Source of the DNA: Zhongshania aquimaris
Lineage (GTDB): Bacteria > Pseudomonadota > Gammaproteobacteria > Pseudomonadales > Spongiibacteraceae
Direction of reading: 5' to 3'
Assembly (NCBI RefSeq): GCF_019312595.1
Contig: NZ_JAHWDQ010000008.1
Coordinates: 1-64,000 of the forward strand
Length of the DNA: 64,000 nt
The number at the start of each line of letters is the position of its first letter. The first letter of the stretch is position 1. Shown piece after piece: positions 37,358-43,797 of the stretch. The translations under genes and the position numbers were made by a program. The notes under the pieces were generated by a model. That model was given only the letters and a program-made list of their open reading frames with translations. It had not been told where the DNA came from and ran no database searches.

Positions 37358-37397
37358 TTGTCATAAATCTGTCTTCAAAAAGCCCTCTGTTTGTCAC
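37358..37397 (+). promoter_or_regulatory. Pho box upstream of plcP-olsF
   Basis: TTGTCAT-AAAT-CTGTCTT (37358-37375) matches the PhoB consensus CTGTCAT-A(A/T)A(A/T)-CTGTCAT in both 7-bp repeats with the 4-bp AT spacer, differing at only two positions of the paired heptamers. A further half-site TTGTCAC lies at 37391, exactly 33 bp (three 11-bp steps) from the first, and TAATCT as a possible -10 begins 10 bp after it. The start codon is at 37439. Predicts induction under phosphate limitation. Confidence 0.65.
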
Positions 37398-37438
37398 TTT
37401 TAAGTCCTAATCTTGCCACAAATGCATAAAGAGGATGC

Positions 37439-38263
37439 ATGAGCGTGGAAACAGGGAATAGATACAAAACGATTTGGCTATCCGACATTCATCTCGGCTT
37501 TAAAGATTGTCGAGCTGACTACCTTCTCAATTTTCTCAACAGTGTTGAATGCGAGACGCTTTATCTTGTTGGTGATGTTGTAGATCTATGGGCGCTCAAA
37601 CGCACCTTTCACTGGCCGGCAAGCCACTACGATGTGGTTCGCGCTTTGTTTGCCAAAGCCAGTGAGGGCACGCGGGTTGTCTATATTCCCGGTAACCACG
37701 ACGAGCCGATGCGCGATTACGTCGGCCACATCCTCGGTCCTATTGAAATCAAGCGCGAGGCAATCCATACCACAGTAAGCGGTAAACGTTTGCTGATGTT
37801 CCATGGCGACTGTCTAGACGAGCACATCTTGCTAAGCAAATGGGAGAATCTTATCGGTGACGCTGCCTATGATTTTCTGCTGTTTTTAAATCGCTGGGCT
37901 AATTTTTTCCGTCGCCGCTTTGGGCGCAATTACTGGTCGCTGGCTACGTATATAAAACAGCGTATCCCCAACGCTCGGCAGGTCATTACCGTGTTTGAAG
38001 ATGCGGCGGTTAAAGAGGCCGCGAGACGAGGTCTCGATGGTGTTATATGCGGGCATATTCACCAGCCCGCTTTGAAGAAAATAAAGGGTCTGTTGTACTG
38101 CAACGACGGTGATTGGATTGAAAACTGTACCTTATTGGGTGAAACCCATGAAGGAAATTTAGAATTGGTGCAGTGGACTGAACATCAAACCTTATTGCAA
38201 AGCATGACAGGCAATGGCGGCCCGGTGAAAGCGGAAATTCTACCGCTGCGGCGTGCTGGGTGA
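37439..38263 (+). CDS. plcP: PlcP-like phospholipase C (calcineurin-fold metallophosphoesterase)
   Basis: 274 residues with the metallophosphoesterase motifs SDIHLG, GDVVDLW, GNHD, FHGD and CGHIHQP. Automated pipelines often call this type a UDP-2,3-diacylglucosamine diphosphatase (LpxH). The pattern HLGFKDCRADYLLNFL, YNxW-like LLYCNDGDWIENC and the preceding Pho box agree better with PlcP, which in Sinorhizobium and marine bacteria degrades phospholipids to diacylglycerol when phosphate is scarce. AGAGG precedes the ATG. The olsF-like gene starts 18 bp downstream. An LpxH-like role is the alternative. Confidence 0.68.
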   Translation: MSVETGNRYKTIWLSDIHLGFKDCRADYLLNFLNSVECETLYLVGDVVDLWALKRTFHWPASHYDVVRALFAKASEGTRVVYIPGNHDEPMRDYVGHILGPIEIKREAIHTTVSGKRLLMFHGDCLDEHILLSKWENLIGDAAYDFLLFLNRWANFFRRRFGRNYWSLATYIKQRIPNARQVITVFEDAAVKEAARRGLDGVICGHIHQPALKKIKGLLYCNDGDWIENCTLLGETHEGNLELVQWTEHQTLLQSMTGNGGPVKAEILPLRRAG

Positions 38264-38281
38264 TAATCAGGAGTAAATGTC

Positions 38282-40021
38282 ATGATTTCTGTCGATGCTG
38301 TGATTGATGAGCAATTTCCTAAAATTTCCAAGGGCAATCCGCGTATAAAGAGAACGCTGTCAGCCCTACTAAAATATCTTTTTCACGAGGCGGAATTTAA
38401 GCAGTTTGAAAAAGATTTCCCCTACGTTCAGGGCTTGGACTTTATTGAAAAAGGCCTGGATTATTTTGATTTTGGCTACGCGGTAAGCGCATTAGATAAA
38501 GAGCGTATTCCCGTTAGTGGCAGAGTCGTCATCATTTCAAACCATCCCATCGGCAGTCTCGATGGTCTCGCTTTGCTCAAGTTGGTGTCGGAAGTACGCG
38601 GCGATGTTAAAGTCATTGCGAACGAGTTGCTATATGCCATCAAGCCGCTGCGGTCATTGCTGCTTCCCGTCGACAATATGAGCGGTAAGCGCAATCGCAA
38701 AGAAAATTTGCAGGCAATTCACAGTCATCTGAGCGGTGAAGGTGCGGTAATTATTTTTCCCGCTGGCGAGGTTTCTCGTTTTAGTCCGGCGGGTATTCGC
38801 GATGGTCGTTGGCGCAATGGATTTATTAAATTTGCGAGTAAAGCTAAGGCGCCTATTTTACCTGTGCATATCAATGCGCGAAATTCGGTATTCTTCTATG
38901 CCCTGTCATTGCTTGCGAAACCGCTGTCGACTCTGTGGCTTATTCGGGAGATGTTCAAACAGAATAATCGCACCGTACGGGTGACTATTGGACCTGTGAT
39001 AGAAGCGGATGTATACGAAAAGCTACCGTTGACCGCACCAGCTAAAGTACGTTTATTTAAAAAGCATATTTATAAACTCGGTCGAAGAAAACGCGGTGGT
39101 GAACCCTGTTTTATGCCTGTTGCGCAGGCAGTAGCTCACCCAGAGGACCGTCAGGAGTTGCGGCGCGCTATTCGCAAGTGTGATCACTTAGGCAGCACCC
39201 GTGACGGCATGGAAATTTATTGCTATCAGTACAGCGGTGACTGCACGGTGATGCGAGAAATTGGTCGTCTTCGCGAAGTGAGTTTTCGGGCGGTGGGTGA
39301 AGGTACCGGCCGCCGTCGCGACGTAGATGCATTTGATGCCTACTATGATCACATTGTGCTTTGGGACGAGAATCAACTTGAATTGGTCGGCGCTTATCGT
39401 CTAAAGCGTGTGACGGATTTAGCTGACGGCCAAACCCTATACAGCGAATCGCTTTTCGAATATCAGATACCTTATGCTGAAGAGTATTTCGAGTGCGGAG
39501 CAGAGTTAGGGCGCAGCTTTGTTCAGCCGCGCTACTGGGGGCGAAACGGTCTGGATTACTTGTGGCAGGGTTTGGGAACCTATCTTCGCCGCTACCCTGA
39601 AGTACGCTATTTGTTTGGCCCTGTTAGCTTGAGTGATAGTTTACCCCGCGGCGCCAAAGATTTATTGATTCAGTTTTATCAGCGCCACTTCCCCGCAACT
39701 CAGCCTTGGGCGAATGCCAATAGCCCGTATAAAAGTGAATTAGCTGAAGCCGTATTTAGCGGCGACGACTACCGCACCGAGTTTGCACAGTTAAAAGATC
39801 AGTTGGCGGCAATGGGCTGCGCTGTACCTACCTTGTACAAGCAATACACAGAGTTGTGTGACGAAGGTGGCGTGAGTTTTACAGCGTTTAATGTTGACCC
39901 AGACTTCGCAGACTGCATTGACGGCCTGGTTTTGGTAGACCTACAAAGAATGAAATCAGCCCGTCGCAAGCGCTATCTGGGCGAAGACATTACTGAGGCG
40001 CGCGCGAATAAAGTGGCGTGA
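38282..40021 (+). CDS. olsF: OlsF-like bifunctional ornithine-lipid acyltransferase
   Basis: 579 residues with two catalytic parts. Residues about 60-265 form a PlsC-type lysolipid O-acyltransferase with the His/Asp motif SNHPIGSLDGLALL (HX5D spacing), FPAGEVSRFS and PILPVHI. Residues about 290-480 form an OlsB/hemolysin-type GNAT N-acyltransferase (VMREIGRLREVSFRAVGEG; LELVGAYRLKR; ELGRSFVQPRYWG). This order is that of OlsF, which makes ornithine lipids alone by N- then O-acylation. AGGAG lies just before the ATG. Position behind a Pho box and plcP fits phosphate-free membrane lipid production. Confidence 0.78.
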   Translation: MISVDAVIDEQFPKISKGNPRIKRTLSALLKYLFHEAEFKQFEKDFPYVQGLDFIEKGLDYFDFGYAVSALDKERIPVSGRVVIISNHPIGSLDGLALLKLVSEVRGDVKVIANELLYAIKPLRSLLLPVDNMSGKRNRKENLQAIHSHLSGEGAVIIFPAGEVSRFSPAGIRDGRWRNGFIKFASKAKAPILPVHINARNSVFFYALSLLAKPLSTLWLIREMFKQNNRTVRVTIGPVIEADVYEKLPLTAPAKVRLFKKHIYKLGRRKRGGEPCFMPVAQAVAHPEDRQELRRAIRKCDHLGSTRDGMEIYCYQYSGDCTVMREIGRLREVSFRAVGEGTGRRRDVDAFDAYYDHIVLWDENQLELVGAYRLKRVTDLADGQTLYSESLFEYQIPYAEEYFECGAELGRSFVQPRYWGRNGLDYLWQGLGTYLRRYPEVRYLFGPVSLSDSLPRGAKDLLIQFYQRHFPATQPWANANSPYKSELAEAVFSGDDYRTEFAQLKDQLAAMGCAVPTLYKQYTELCDEGGVSFTAFNVDPDFADCIDGLVLVDLQRMKSARRKRYLGEDITEARANKVA

Positions 40022-40034
40022 AACATCATGTGCT

Positions 40035-40068
40035 AAGCTAGCTAAGGATTTTGCCTTAGCTAGCTTTT
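40035..40068 (+). terminator. Intrinsic terminator after olsF
   Basis: AAGCTAGCTAAGG and CCTTAGCTAGCTT pair perfectly (13 bp) around ATTTTG, followed by TT then AAAA. It starts 14 bp after the olsF stop and may also end the convergent hydrolase operon. Confidence 0.85.
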
Positions 40069-40101: not shown

Positions 40102-40869
40102 TCAATTAGCGATCTGCTTGAAGCTGGCGAGCAAATAGTCTGCGTCATCAATCGGTAAGTCATGCCCAGCCGTGTTATGTAGCCATAGCGGCCAGTGATA
40201 TTTCTCTGCCAGATACTCACTACATTGATACGACACCATTCTATCCGCGCGACTGCTAATGAAATGACCGTGGGAATTTGCGAGGCCTTCTTTTGAGGGC
40301 GAGTAAAAGCGTGATGCCGCAATTAGCTGGCGTATCACATTGCGTATACTTGCTGGGTGGCGGGCGCGTATCTGACACCACTGTTCGAGCAGTGCCGCAT
40401 GGCTAGATTTATTATTGCTCACCATATTGAGTATTGCGCGCTCTTGCTTGCGCGGTGACAAAGCAAATAGCGCGTAAAGTGTTGCAGGCAGCGCGCTGGG
40501 TTTTAAGCGTTTAAAGAAGCCACAGTCTGCGCTGCTGGTGCTAATGAATATAACCTTGGCAATATTATTCGGCGACGTTGTCAACCAATCTAGTGCCACC
40601 ATGCCACCTAATGACAGTGCAACAATGCCGAATGTTGAATTGTTATTGGCTAGCTCTGCGGGAAGCCGCTGCTGAATGTCGCGGCGTATCTCCGAAATGG
40701 TGAGGGGAGACCTGCGCAGGTGCTCGCTACCGAATCCGGGTAGATCAATAGCGTGACAATACCATCCGAGTTCGCTTTCACAGCGTTTTATAAATTCCCC
40801 CCAATGAGCTTGCTCCCGGCTCAGACCGCGAAGAAATAGCCAGTGCTTAATGTCGGCGTTGGCGTTCAT
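40102..40869 (-). CDS. Alpha/beta hydrolase
   Basis: 255 residues. Oxyanion region HWLFLRGLSREQAHWGEF, nucleophile elbow VALSLGGMVALDW (Ser with Ala in place of the first Gly), and His in NTAGHDLPIDDADYL near the C-terminus. General shape resembles BioH/YcdJ-type carboxylesterases; the substrate is unknown. It overlaps the upstream carboxypeptidase-like gene by 4 nt, so it belongs to that operon and not to biotin synthesis. Confidence 0.75.
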   Translation of the reverse strand: MNANADIKHWLFLRGLSREQAHWGEFIKRCESELGWYCHAIDLPGFGSEHLRRSPLTISEIRRDIQQRLPAELANNNSTFGIVALSLGGMVALDWLTTSPNNIAKVIFISTSSADCGFFKRLKPSALPATLYALFALSPRKQERAILNMVSNNKSSHAALLEQWCQIRARHPASIRNVIRQLIAASRFYSPSKEGLANSHGHFISSRADRMVSYQCSEYLAEKYHWPLWLHNTAGHDLPIDDADYLLASFKQIAN

Positions 40870-41996
40870 AGTTGGCGATACCAGAGACTTTGTGCCATTT
40901 GCTGCATCTCCCGCTCCTGTTCGCCTTTGGGTTGCCAGTGCTCGATGTTTCTTGCCGCAGCCAGTAGAAAGTCAATTAATAGCAGATGGCCGCGCAGAAC
41001 TCTAGCGTGGCGGTGAGGAACGGTGGGGTTGAATAATCCGGCAAAACTAAAAAGTTGTTGGGGATGTTTTTTAACCCACAGCCATGACCCCATTTCGAGG
41101 GTGAGCGGCAGTAAGGTAATTCCTTCAGCGCGACATTGTCGATGAAAATAATCCCAAATATCACCGTGACTCAGGTAGTGCATGGCTTGCGGGCCAAACA
41201 CATAATTGTGATGGGGGAAGTTGCGCTCCCACAGTAATTTCAGCGCGACATAGCTGCCGATGTCGTCGATGGGTTGACGGCGATAGGCATAGGGAATCCA
41301 CAGATGATCTTGAAAGCCAAATCCGGAATGAAAGTCGACGACAATACTGGGGCGGTCTACTTGGCAGTAGCGTTTAATAATATTTTGCAGGGCAACAAAT
41401 TCGCTTTCGAAATCAGCTCCGCGTTTTCCTCTATACCAGGGAATAGCTTTTGATATGCGCTGACCGCCGACTAAAAACGGAACCTTGTCTTCTGCATCAA
41501 TAGGAGCGTGGCGATTTAAGTCGATGCCGTTTGGGTTGCAGCGGGAGTCTTGCAACATGCCGCCGGGATTAACTAGTGGCACTGCGACTATGGCGATCTC
41601 GCTTTCAAATTGCGATCGCCAATTGCTATCCCAGCGGCACCGTTCTATTACTGTTTCTAGCCACGCTAACAGAACTTGAGTGCCTATGCGCTCTACGCCG
41701 TGGATGCCGGCGGTGAGTAGCAGGCAGTGCTTTGCAATGTCTGGGTTGCCAATGGTGAGCGATACGACGGGTAAGGTAAATTCATCGACGTCAACGAGGG
41801 CTTCGGTGCGGGTGGTAATTAAATCGCCAGCTTGCCGGCAAAGTTGTTCGGTGGAAAGGAGCTCAGAAAGCCGGTGGCGAAGACGGCCACGGCAGTCGTC
41901 CATCACACTGGTGAAATCTGGGAAATCCGGCCCGTACGAGGCGGTGTCCGTATGGTTTGCTATGTCCTCCATACGGGCTTGTTCTTTATATCCCAT
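40866..41996 (-). CDS. M14-type zinc carboxypeptidase / DUF2817-like protein
   Basis: 376 residues from ATG 41996 (MGYKEQARMED); the frame opens to 42053 and other ATGs lie inside. The metal-site pattern TAGIHGVERIG (His and Glu), then NPNGIDLNRH (Asn-Arg) and VVDFHSGFG (His) give the order of M14/AstE-like amidohydrolases. Near the C-terminus LTLEMGSW offers the catalytic Glu. No signal peptide. Substrate unknown. It lies 8 bp after the glycosyltransferase stop and overlaps the hydrolase gene. Confidence 0.72.
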   Translation of the reverse strand: MGYKEQARMEDIANHTDTASYGPDFPDFTSVMDDCRGRLRHRLSELLSTEQLCRQAGDLITTRTEALVDVDEFTLPVVSLTIGNPDIAKHCLLLTAGIHGVERIGTQVLLAWLETVIERCRWDSNWRSQFESEIAIVAVPLVNPGGMLQDSRCNPNGIDLNRHAPIDAEDKVPFLVGGQRISKAIPWYRGKRGADFESEFVALQNIIKRYCQVDRPSIVVDFHSGFGFQDHLWIPYAYRRQPIDDIGSYVALKLLWERNFPHHNYVFGPQAMHYLSHGDIWDYFHRQCRAEGITLLPLTLEMGSWLWVKKHPQQLFSFAGLFNPTVPHRHARVLRGHLLLIDFLLAAARNIEHWQPKGEQEREMQQMAQSLWYRQL

Positions 41997-42004
41997 GGTT
42001 GGTA

Positions 42005-43066
42005 TCAGCCTGTCGCGGCAATCATGTCGGCGGGTCGACCAGTTTGTTCCCAAAGTTCTGACACCAGTTTTGAGCTGTCATGCCACTCGCCGCTCAATAG
42101 CCAGTCGCAAATTGCCGCGGCGACATCGGGATAGTACGCGGCAGTTTGCGCGGGGATATTAGCGAGCCAGTTTTCAATATGCTGTGCTGAGAAGTCATAC
42201 ATAACAGTTGCGGCGCCTAGTTGTTGCAGGGCGGCGGCGTTACCTAATTGTTCTGACTGCCCCGCTACCGGTTTTGCGAGGGCCGGAATTCCCATATGCA
42301 GGCATTCGCTAATTAATTCAAACCCCGCATTGCAGATAACGCCTTTGGCTCGACATAGATTATGTTTGAAGTCGTGTAGGCTAGTTGGTCTAAGGCTTAT
42401 ATTTGCGCGCTCCTCACGCGGTAATTGAGGCGCGAATTGAATAAATTTTTGATTGGGAAATGTCGCGAGTGCCGCACTGACTAGTTGCTGATCTTCAAAG
42501 GGCAGGTACACGACGATGTGCGCCGGCGAGCCGCAAGGCTGGCGAATTTCGGCAGGGTTGATTATCGGCGGCGCGATATTGGCGTTAAACGCATCCCAGT
42601 GTAATCCCAAGCGGTATTGAGTGGGTGCAAAGAATTTCATAATAAGACGGTTGCGAAGGTCAACCCCGCTTTGAGGTACGTCGGGGTAGCCAAATGCGTA
42701 CTGGTGGCCAATTCCGATGACAGGCTTTTTCTTTAGACGGCCGGCCCAGGCGGTGACGGGTTCAAAATCGGTAATGATTGCATCGTAAAAGCTGATATCG
42801 AGTTTGCGAACATCCCGAATAAACGTTAGCGGTTTGGTTTGGACTAGGGTTTGTATTGCGCTAATGCTACCTTTATTTGTAGCGAAACTGAGGCCATCTC
42901 TGAGTTGGTAGTCGCCGAAAATCTCCATATCAAAATACTGGTCGGCGGCGCGACCAGAGAACAAAAATTGAACGTCTATATTTTTTTCGGAAAAGTGCGT
43001 GGCCAACATGCGGGCGCGGGAAATATGGCCATTGCCGGTTCCCTGCACACCGTATAGGAGTTTCAT
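42005..43066 (-). CDS. MJ1255/VC2487 family glycosyltransferase
   Basis: 353 residues, GT-B fold similar to MurG/GT28. The N-terminus MKLLYGVQGTGNGHISRARM is the hallmark of this family. The C-terminal half has CNAGFELISECLHMGIPALA followed by PVAGQSEQLGNAAALQQLG, the nucleotide-sugar site. GT28-like enzymes commonly glycosylate lipids, so with PAP2 upstream a glycolipid role is possible; this is inference. 123 bp after PAP2. Confidence 0.8.
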   Translation of the reverse strand: MKLLYGVQGTGNGHISRARMLATHFSEKNIDVQFLFSGRAADQYFDMEIFGDYQLRDGLSFATNKGSISAIQTLVQTKPLTFIRDVRKLDISFYDAIITDFEPVTAWAGRLKKKPVIGIGHQYAFGYPDVPQSGVDLRNRLIMKFFAPTQYRLGLHWDAFNANIAPPIINPAEIRQPCGSPAHIVVYLPFEDQQLVSAALATFPNQKFIQFAPQLPREERANISLRPTSLHDFKHNLCRAKGVICNAGFELISECLHMGIPALAKPVAGQSEQLGNAAALQQLGAATVMYDFSAQHIENWLANIPAQTAAYYPDVAAAICDWLLSGEWHDSSKLVSELWEQTGRPADMIAATG

Positions 43067-43189
43067 AATGGATCTCTCATGATTGGGTTGCTACCACTGT
43101 GTTCACTGCGTGATGGAGGTGAAGATTGGGAGTGGTAGGTGACGTTTTGCGACGGCATGATATCCGCGCGCATGATCAGAAAAATGGTA

Positions 43190-43720
43190 TTAGACTGCTG
43201 CGACAATCGAATGTCCCAGATGCGCGATCCCAATACCTAAGCTGGCGCCGGCTAGGGTGTCGGTGGGGAAATGCACGCCGAGTATTACCCGCGAGGCACC
43301 CACGGCAACAGCCCACAAGAAAAGTGGAATACCGATAGCCCCGAAAAACAGCACCGTCATGGTCGCTAGTAAAAAGGCGGCCGCGGTGTGGCCTGAGGGG
43401 AAACTGAATTCGTCTGAGGCAATAATGGCGGCACTAAAAGCGGGAATGGCGGCGGGCGGTCGCTTTCTGCGGCAGGTGTTTTTTAGCACCCAGTAAATGG
43501 GCAGCCATGCGGCAAAACTAATCATAACCGCACTAAAATAGCTTAGACCTTGGTTTGCCCCCATCATGTAAACGCAAAGGGGAAGGCCTAGCTGGGCATA
43601 GCCGTCGCCGGTTTTTGATACACTTCGGGCTACACGAGACAACTGTTGCTGGTGGCGGGTATTCACGCAGGCCAGAAACATTCGCACATCGAACTGATTT
43701 ATCGACTGTATTAAGCGCAT
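43190..43720 (-). CDS. PAP2 family membrane phosphatase
   Basis: 176 residues from ATG 43720 with AGGA upstream; the frame opens to 43786. Several membrane helices and the three PAP2 phosphatase motifs: KNTCRRKRPP, PSGHTAAAF and SRVILGVHFPTD. It dephosphorylates a lipid phosphate (phosphatidate, phosphatidylglycerophosphate or undecaprenyl-PP) at the membrane. Pho-like half-sites precede it. Confidence 0.87.
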   Translation of the reverse strand: MRLIQSINQFDVRMFLACVNTRHQQQLSRVARSVSKTGDGYAQLGLPLCVYMMGANQGLSYFSAVMISFAAWLPIYWVLKNTCRRKRPPAAIPAFSAAIIASDEFSFPSGHTAAAFLLATMTVLFFGAIGIPLFLWAVAVGASRVILGVHFPTDTLAGASLGIGIAHLGHSIVAAV

Positions 43721-43757
43721 AGTTTTATCCTCACATCTGAAACCATACGCTGATGTG

Positions 43758-43797
43758 TTTTCAATATTGTGACAAATGTATTGCAATTTTAAGACAG
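43758..43797 (-). promoter_or_regulatory. Pho-like 11-bp-phased array upstream of PAP2
   Basis: On the minus strand CTGTCTT (43797-43791), TTGCAAT (43786-43780), TTGTCAC (43775-43769) and TTGAAAA (43764-43758) recur with an exact 11-bp period, the spacing of PhoB heptamers. The first and third fit well, the others poorly. TATGGT follows the last heptamer by 10 bp as a possible -10. Confidence 0.42.

Follow-up and report, generated by a model that had tools for sequence, protein, structure and literature searches.

A putative PhoB-controlled plcP-olsF operon in Zhongshania aquimaris, a recurrent gene arrangement in gammaproteobacteria

We analysed a 64,000-nucleotide stretch of the Zhongshania aquimaris genome (contig NZ_JAHWDQ010000008.1, positions 1 to 64,000 of the forward strand; hereafter the window), which carries a Pho box followed by two genes, plcP and olsF, reading in the same direction. 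Enzymes of the PlcP family break down phospholipids, and those of the OlsF family make ornithine lipid from ornithine and acylated acyl carrier protein (acyl-ACP). A first-pass annotation made from the letters of the sequence had described the locus as an operon for lipid remodelling under phosphate starvation. The features of the locus are as follows.

37358 to 37375, plus strand: Pho box 1, half-sites TTGTCAT (37358-37364) and CTGTCTT (37369-37375), aligned in 21 family genomes
37380 to 37397, plus strand: putative second Pho box that keeps to the 11-bp repeat, with half-sites AAGCCCT (37380-37386, degenerate) and TTGTCAC (37391-37397)
37408 to 37413, plus strand: putative -10 element TAATCT, 10 nt past half-site 4, a spacing shared with E. 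coli pstS
37439 to 38263, plus strand: plcP, predicted PlcP-type metallophosphoesterase (phospholipase C), 274 residues, assigned by Metallophos match, tree and motif
38282 to 40021, plus strand: olsF, predicted bifunctional ornithine lipid synthase, 579 residues, assigned by NF052615, with an N-terminal acyltransferase and a C-terminal GNAT N-acyltransferase

The ATG of plcP at 37439 lies 63 bp past the Pho box (64 bp in the first-pass annotation), and olsF starts 18 bp past the end of plcP (38263 to 38282), the spacing that had been reported. The true plcP start is probably the GTG at 37445, because the relatives L009 to L012 either lack the ATG or have a stop directly after it. In L009, the plcP locus of genome G009, the second codon after the ATG is TGA, and the GTG right after it is the likely genus-wide start.

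The product of plcP was compared with LpxH, the lipid A enzyme for which such proteins may be mistaken. It scored below the cut-offs of two LpxH models (41 bits against 134, and 36.7 bits against 190.35), and the genome encodes a separate LpxH on contig C1 (302.9 bits) that is 21% identical to it. When 32 PlcP-type proteins and 5 LpxH proteins were put into one tree, the two groups were split at 100/100 and the window protein fell within PlcP. S. meliloti is represented in this tree by one row only, a protein encoded on pSymB, which is not the known chromosomal plcP. The motif GNHD is present in 32/32 PlcP rows, the window included, versus GNRD in 5/5 LpxH rows. The metallophosphoesterase residues D16, H18, D46, N86, H87, D88, H122, H206 and H208 are all present in the window protein and invariant in the 32 PlcP rows. 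The protein is also 45% identical over 242 amino acids to the P. aeruginosa protein encoded directly before a glycosyltransferase in locus L230. We equated the latter with PA3219 by gene order and with the help of PMC8528852, in which the PA3219-PA3218 operon was tested by mutants. L230 is the P. aeruginosa plasmid pPALO11, which carries a plcP-glycosyltransferase pair like the chromosomal PA3219-PA3218. On these sequence criteria, ORF 37439-38263 is a predicted PlcP-type phospholipase C and not an LpxH. The first-pass annotation had named, as the situation that would undo its reading, a phosphoesterase clustering with LpxH in a genome without another lpxH; the tree and the separate LpxH on C1 show the opposite. 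It had also anticipated that most annotation would call the gene lpxH, and this is borne out by 32 plasmid records with a PlcP match, in which 24 of the 25 labelled matches read 'UDP-2,3-diacylglucosamine diphosphatase'.

The product of the second gene matched the OlsF equivalog NF052615 with 821.6 bits against a cut-off of 620, over residues 1-566 of 579, while the GlsA and GlsB models stayed below their cut-offs. Two domains were recognized, a PF19576 acyltransferase at residues 8-241 and a PF13444 GNAT N-acyltransferase at 330-429. A search of the genome with one OlsB model found no separate OlsB, the sole match being OlsF's own domain (64.4 against 350 bits). ORF 38282-40021 is thereby assigned as a predicted OlsF, as had been proposed. 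The pairing of plcP with the one-protein OlsF instead of olsBA had been singled out as the unusual part of the locus. The pairing itself recurs across families and is not peculiar to this genome.

To characterize the promoter, we took the sequence before plcP from 21 genomes of the family, among them that of the window, and aligned it on the best box of each; some of these genomes are close relatives, so that the cases are not independent. In L014 and L022 the in-register box was used although another scored as good or better. The conservation of half-site 1 arises partly by construction, the alignment being anchored on the best box. Independently of the box choice, half-site 4 at +33 reads nTGTCA(C/T) in 21/21 genomes, and a -10 of the form TAnnnT follows it at exactly 10 nt, again in 21/21; half-site 3 is conserved less than half-site 4. 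The share of the majority base is 0.86 in the box, 0.66 in columns 29-51 and 0.78 in columns 51-66, versus 0.38 in the 40 bp upstream. A strict signature, made of two TGTCA, one TGTC and TA...T at fixed spacing, occurs a single time when both strands of the window are scanned (at 37358) and in 15/21 family genomes (14/20 without the window's own), whereas 152,460 bases of control sequence contain none. The E. coli pstS promoter, taken from L098, has the same spacing of half-sites and -10 as the plcP promoter. Letter identity to the whole pstS promoter was discarded as evidence, since it amounted to 34/61 in register, 36 when shifted by one repeat (11 bp) and 33 at the best position elsewhere in the window. 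A sigma-70 consensus scan detected no ordinary promoter before plcP. The 200 bp before plcP were scanned in 79 named PlcP loci; a Pho box at 2 mismatches or fewer turns up in 16 of these, versus 0/79 stretches inside the gene. Because half-site 4 and the -10 are conserved in register, the box is more than a chance match, and the alignment supports the view that TTGTCAT-AAAT-CTGTCTT, which had been noticed in the first pass, belongs to a full PhoB-type promoter.

Four exact-match Pho boxes are found in the genome, three of which precede genes reading as a PstS-type binding protein, PhoB and GalU (named by eye from their translations). The exact-match box at C1:780727-780744 (L026) has no downstream ORF of at least 70 codons within 400 bp, and that at C12:46060-46077 (L027) stands before the galU-like gene. 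There, a box with at most 1 mismatch is present in 7/17 same-genus loci; it is kept in part of the genus, and we did not use it as a regulon claim. A supply of UDP-glucose would fit the glycolipid branch considered below.

The adjacency of plcP and olsF in relatives, suggested as a check in the first pass, was found repeatedly. In the window's order, 40/194 genomes have both genes, which lie within 500 bp of each other in 20 of the 40, spread over 8 families and, in 19/20, arranged as plcP-olsF. Eight of these 20 genomes belong to the window's own family and 12 to 7 other families; one of the 20, G035, has only a plcP fragment (29.9 bits). The OlsF set of the order consists of rows over the family cut-off (51/194 genomes) and one partial (G200), and the PlcP set of 77 genomes including the partial G070 and the fragment G035, lower OlsF-like and LpxH-like rows having been dropped. 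Gaps were measured between match ends, not from stop to start codons. In the rest of the class, OlsF rows were taken to E 1e-80, so that rows below the cut-off are included; 28 genomes, the window's excluded, have both genes, and the pair lies within 500 bp in 8 of them, from 8 families. Four of these eight pairs are divergent, three read olsF-plcP and one reads plcP-olsF; OlsF is above the cut-off in G265, G291, G477 and G551 and below it in G284, G289, G330 and G417. Among named genomes we looked at the best 80 PlcP loci, which are a sample and no census. In 7 of them olsF lies downstream within 285 bp; all are Alteromonadaceae or Colwelliaceae, including a Glaciecola, three members of Alteromonas and a Thalassotalea that is uncultured. 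Two Nitrosomonas among these 80 loci have olsF 2.9-3.2 kb from plcP on the opposite strand. Because the arrangements differ between families, the data suggest that the association arose repeatedly. The parts of the plcP-olsF operon are known ones; their arrangement is new and recurs in gammaproteobacteria.

We consider it very likely that the two genes make up a single operon, switched on by PhoB, through which membrane lipids are replaced when phosphate runs short. As far as sequence and its conservation indicate, PhoB would dock on the half-sites, which repeat in tandem every 11 bp, and bring RNA polymerase to the -10 (37408-37413). By family membership, PlcP would cleave phosphatidylglycerol and phosphatidylethanolamine into diacylglycerol and a phosphate-bearing head group. 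OlsF, by equivalog membership, would acylate ornithine twice from acyl-ACP, yielding the zwitterionic, phosphorus-free ornithine lipid. OlsF is not known to use diacylglycerol, and the operon would therefore join two parallel branches, PlcP removing phospholipid and OlsF refilling the membrane, while by itself it is silent on the destination of the PlcP product. With this qualification, the earlier picture of stripping and substitution is supported at the level of sequence.

Several observations weigh against such an operon. Scored by its letters, the box is at chance level: at 3 mismatches or fewer to the E. coli consensus, the window contains 4 matches versus 4.02 expected, and genome-wide, at 1 mismatch or fewer, there are 22 matches versus 18 for the reversed pattern. 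Significance claimed from the box letters alone was rejected as insufficient on this ground. Several other plcP-olsF loci have a weak Pho box before plcP or none: of six such loci read in the order outside the family, three have a box at 2 mismatches or fewer, and in the seven named plcP-olsF loci the best box before plcP has 2-4 mismatches. In 20/40 genomes of the order and 20/28 of the class sample, plcP and olsF are separated by over 500 bp or lie on different contigs. In Ruegeria, aminolipid formation was called independent of PlcP remodelling (2022, PMC9938194), and in the Tara metagenomes the abundance of olsF does not follow the nitrogen-to-phosphorus measure, unlike that of olsB (PMC6298996).

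The Tara data would also be consistent with an OlsF protein whose product is a different aminolipid, such as a glycine or lysine lipid, or that serves mainly in a stress other than phosphate shortage. Such a role has precedents, since one V. cholerae OlsF responds to low salinity and not to phosphate (PMC12186959) and an OlsF homologue was proposed for lysine lipid (PMC11631085). We nevertheless judge it improbable here, given an OlsF equivalog score above the cut-off with GlsA and GlsB below theirs, and a conserved Pho promoter. The phosphoesterase might instead be a second LpxH in lipid A synthesis, with olsF as an incidental neighbour, as the public label and the weak similarity to the LpxH models (41 and 36.7 bits) could be taken to say. 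Both cut-offs are missed, however, the genome has its own LpxH, the tree and the GNHD motif place the protein with PlcP, and the pairing with olsF recurs, so that we find this explanation hardly credible. A PhoB-activated plcP-olsF operon is the reading that we retain.

The diacylglycerol released by PlcP would go elsewhere than to OlsF. The usual diacylglycerol-using partner of plcP, Agt or BtaAB, was found neither beside plcP nor in the genome by an Agt-type query and PF11899. The one Agt-type query, which shares 53% identity with the glycosyltransferase next to plcP in P. aeruginosa, gave only 19.9 bits over 80 residues, and PF11899, which we take to be the domain of BtaA, had no match in the genome. 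Two sinks can be named, an MJ1255-type glycosyltransferase leading to a glycolipid and DgkA leading to phosphatidate, and both have some Pho-box evidence in relatives. The glycosyltransferase is encoded nearby, among the following features.

40035 to 40066, no strand: 13-bp stem-loop in the gap where the two convergent groups meet (-20.9 kcal/mol, z -3.33)
40102 to 40869, minus strand: alpha/beta hydrolase, role inferred
40866 to 41972, minus strand: M14 zinc carboxypeptidase-type hydrolase (PF00246), ORF open to 42053
42005 to 43066, minus strand: MJ1255/VC2487-family glycosyltransferase (TIGR00661), MurG-like, candidate diacylglycerol glycosyltransferase
43190 to 43786, minus strand: PAP2-family phosphatase, first gene of the convergent cluster (PF01569, synteny), a later ATG at 43720 being possible
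43769 to 43797, minus strand: weaker Pho-like array before PAP2, CTGTCTT-N4-TTGCAAT-N4-TTGTCAC, from mismatch counts in 11 loci

The stem-loop at 40035-40066 is possibly a shared terminator of the two convergent groups; a consensus terminator scan did not pick it up. The cluster of the minus strand (40102-43786), encoding PAP2, the glycosyltransferase, the M14 protein and the alpha/beta hydrolase, is convergent to plcP-olsF and syntenic in 6/7 genus members, the genus member G018 having none of the four genes. Among 11 relative regions, seven of them from the window's genus, the glycosyltransferase and PAP2 are found in 8 and M14 and the hydrolase in 7. The glycosyltransferase is found in 1 of 20 further relative regions and M14 with the hydrolase in 1, and the best 80 named PlcP loci contain the former in 3 and the latter in 2. 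In total, the glycosyltransferase lies near plcP or olsF in 9/31 relative regions, six of which belong to the window's genus. In the plcP regions that bear M14 (n=10; 8/31 relative and 2/80 named), the alpha/beta hydrolase adjoins it in all. The glycosyltransferase scored 214.2 bits against 195.9 for TIGR00661. The M14 domain PF00246 is present in 9/9 aligned members, and the best solved PDB match of the M14 profile is carboxypeptidase B (9.7e-08). AlphaFold models are weak (pLDDT 58.5 for M14 and 69.4 for the glycosyltransferase), and their fold matches only back the sequence-based family calls.

Parts of the cluster also stand near plcP or olsF in Nitrosomonas, G188, G037, LSUCC0057 and G417. 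In G188, from another family, plcP-olsF-M14-hydrolase lie on one strand. Both Nitrosomonas loci have plcP and the glycosyltransferase on one strand and M14, the hydrolase and olsF on the other, all within about 8 kb. In G037, the glycosyltransferase and PAP2 are located between plcP and olsF, and in LSUCC0057 the glycosyltransferase lies near plcP. On an Aureibacter (Bacteroidota) plasmid the glycosyltransferase begins some 100 bp beyond the plcP match. M14 with the hydrolase, and no plcP in view, was seen in Photobacterium and Cupriavidus records. On a Methylomagnum ishizawai plasmid (L270), an M14 relative adjoins two alkaline phosphatase genes; the alpha/beta hydrolase beside it had no match to the window's hydrolase and was not counted as a relative. 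In one Nitrosomonas locus, plcP and the MJ1255-type glycosyltransferase are separated by an ORF that by eye looks patatin-like (L151:6874-7788). Because most surveyed plcP loci have none of these genes nearby, we treat the cluster as a neighbourhood that recurs but does not belong to the core of plcP-olsF.

Pho-like sequences around the cluster are uneven. The array before PAP2 has at most 3 mismatches in 9/11 loci, with a shuffle share of 0.05 or less in 7/11, and no -10 at the 10-nt spacing. The Nitrosomonas glycosyltransferase has its own Pho box with a -10 at 10 nt in 2/2 loci. No box was found before M14 in 11 loci (no shuffle share below 0.20) or before the methyltransferase in 9 loci (none below 0.10), and in Nitrosomonas, where plcP and M14 diverge, the best boxes on the side of M14 have 4 and 5 mismatches, none of them good.

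The MJ1255/VC2487-type glycosyltransferase (42005-43066) may replace Agt and glycosylate diacylglycerol, so that the locus would make both ornithine lipid and a glycolipid; we give this somewhat less than an even chance. It would fill the place left by the Agt-type query and PF11899, it recurs around plcP or olsF in the relative regions, the named loci and the Aureibacter plasmid counted above, and in Nitrosomonas it follows its own Pho box and -10. It is MurG-like by profile (E 0.0025) and by fold, and GT28 is a known glycoglycerolipid-synthase family (PMC8231724). On the other hand, it is absent from 22/31 relative regions and from 77 of the best 80 named loci, no good box stands directly before it in the window's genus, where the PAP2 array is weak, and its structure model is modest (pLDDT 69.4, TM about 0.5). 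In an Aeromonas record the PAP2-glycosyltransferase pair has no plcP next to it, and the 32 PlcP-matching records include none from Aeromonas. The MJ1255/VC2487 family has no activity known to us, and we found no lipid function for it in print, the one paper found for VC2487 or MJ1255 being, by its title and the start of its abstract, on natural transformation.

In the other proposal, DgkA would rephosphorylate diacylglycerol to phosphatidate in a head-group-stripping cycle, with OlsF giving the replacement lipid; we rate this as rather unlikely, a little below the glycosyltransferase. A gene that by eye looks DgkA-like is preceded by a Pho box of no more than 2 mismatches in 16/18 same-genus genomes and, by an eye count, TAnnnT follows 10-11 nt after the box in 17/18, two second copies (L121 and L122) being left out; the box is present in 0/2 loci of a second genus. 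In the window's own genome (L045, C12:55455-55472), the box and -10-like element overlap the start of a divergent acyltransferase-like gene, and because of this overlap with a coding start we treat the box as a lead only. The third positions of codons 2-5 of the overlapped gene are conserved at 0.89-1.00, versus 0.44 and 0.39 at the invariant Leu7 and Pro10, which we count in favour of the box, although first codons are often constrained for other reasons. In P. putida BIRD-1, DagK is up in low phosphate together with PlcP and OlsAB (PMC5082522). Rephosphorylation, however, uses up the phosphate gained and saves no phosphorus on its own.

A wider proposal takes all six genes as a phosphate-starvation lipid island of two convergent PhoB-controlled operons, in which the MJ1255-type glycosyltransferase would be a new diacylglycerol glycosyltransferase partner and the hydrolase and M14 would serve dedicated ornithine-lipid turnover. 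The alpha/beta hydrolase would remove the ester-linked chain, and the carboxypeptidase-B-like M14 would then cut the amide bond of N-acyl-ornithine, a plausible substrate because its free alpha-carboxylate and basic side chain suit carboxypeptidase chemistry. We regard this island as doubtful, and keep to the two-gene plcP-olsF operon.

No published report of a plcP-olsF operon was recognized from titles and starts of abstracts, in a search that left supplements, preprints and most subscription journals aside. Its nearest likeness is the plcP-agt operon (P. aeruginosa PA3219-PA3218, SAR11, Methylosinus), which likewise places a gene for a phosphorus-free lipid downstream of plcP with a Pho box in front (PMC4796936, PMC8528852). 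The six plcP contexts described in 2016 name btaAB, agt and other glycosyltransferases as partners, and not olsF (PMC4796936). Here plcP is paired with olsF instead, whose product makes an aminolipid and is not known to take diacylglycerol as substrate, and one Agt-type query detected no Agt in the genome. The V. cholerae OlsF gene (VC0489) is likewise induced through PhoB in low phosphate, but that paper never mentions 'phospholipase', and it is not one of four papers found to combine plcP, olsF and ornithine lipid (PMC12186959). P. putida BIRD-1 has the same pair of functions, PlcP and OlsAB (with DagK), under PhoBR, but with the two-protein OlsAB and with plcP (PPUBIRD1_1390) apart from olsAB (0974, 0975) (PMC5082522). 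In Desulfovibrio alaskensis G20, OlsF is needed in low phosphate along with a glycolipid route, but olsF (Dde_3661) and agt (Dde_3613) have separate locus tags, and plcP is not mentioned (PMC5193443).

The presence of plcP is used to mark lipid remodelling where waters are poor in phosphorus, and the gene has mostly been tied to glycolipids or betaine lipids (PMC4796936). If the recurrent plcP-olsF operon of Alteromonas-like and other gammaproteobacteria works as proposed, many plcP carriers would also swap phospholipid for ornithine lipid. The operon would tie together two branches described as independent in Ruegeria (PMC9938194). It also poses the question of where the diacylglycerol of PlcP goes in a genome with no detected Agt or BtaA, for which the neighbouring genes are testable candidates.

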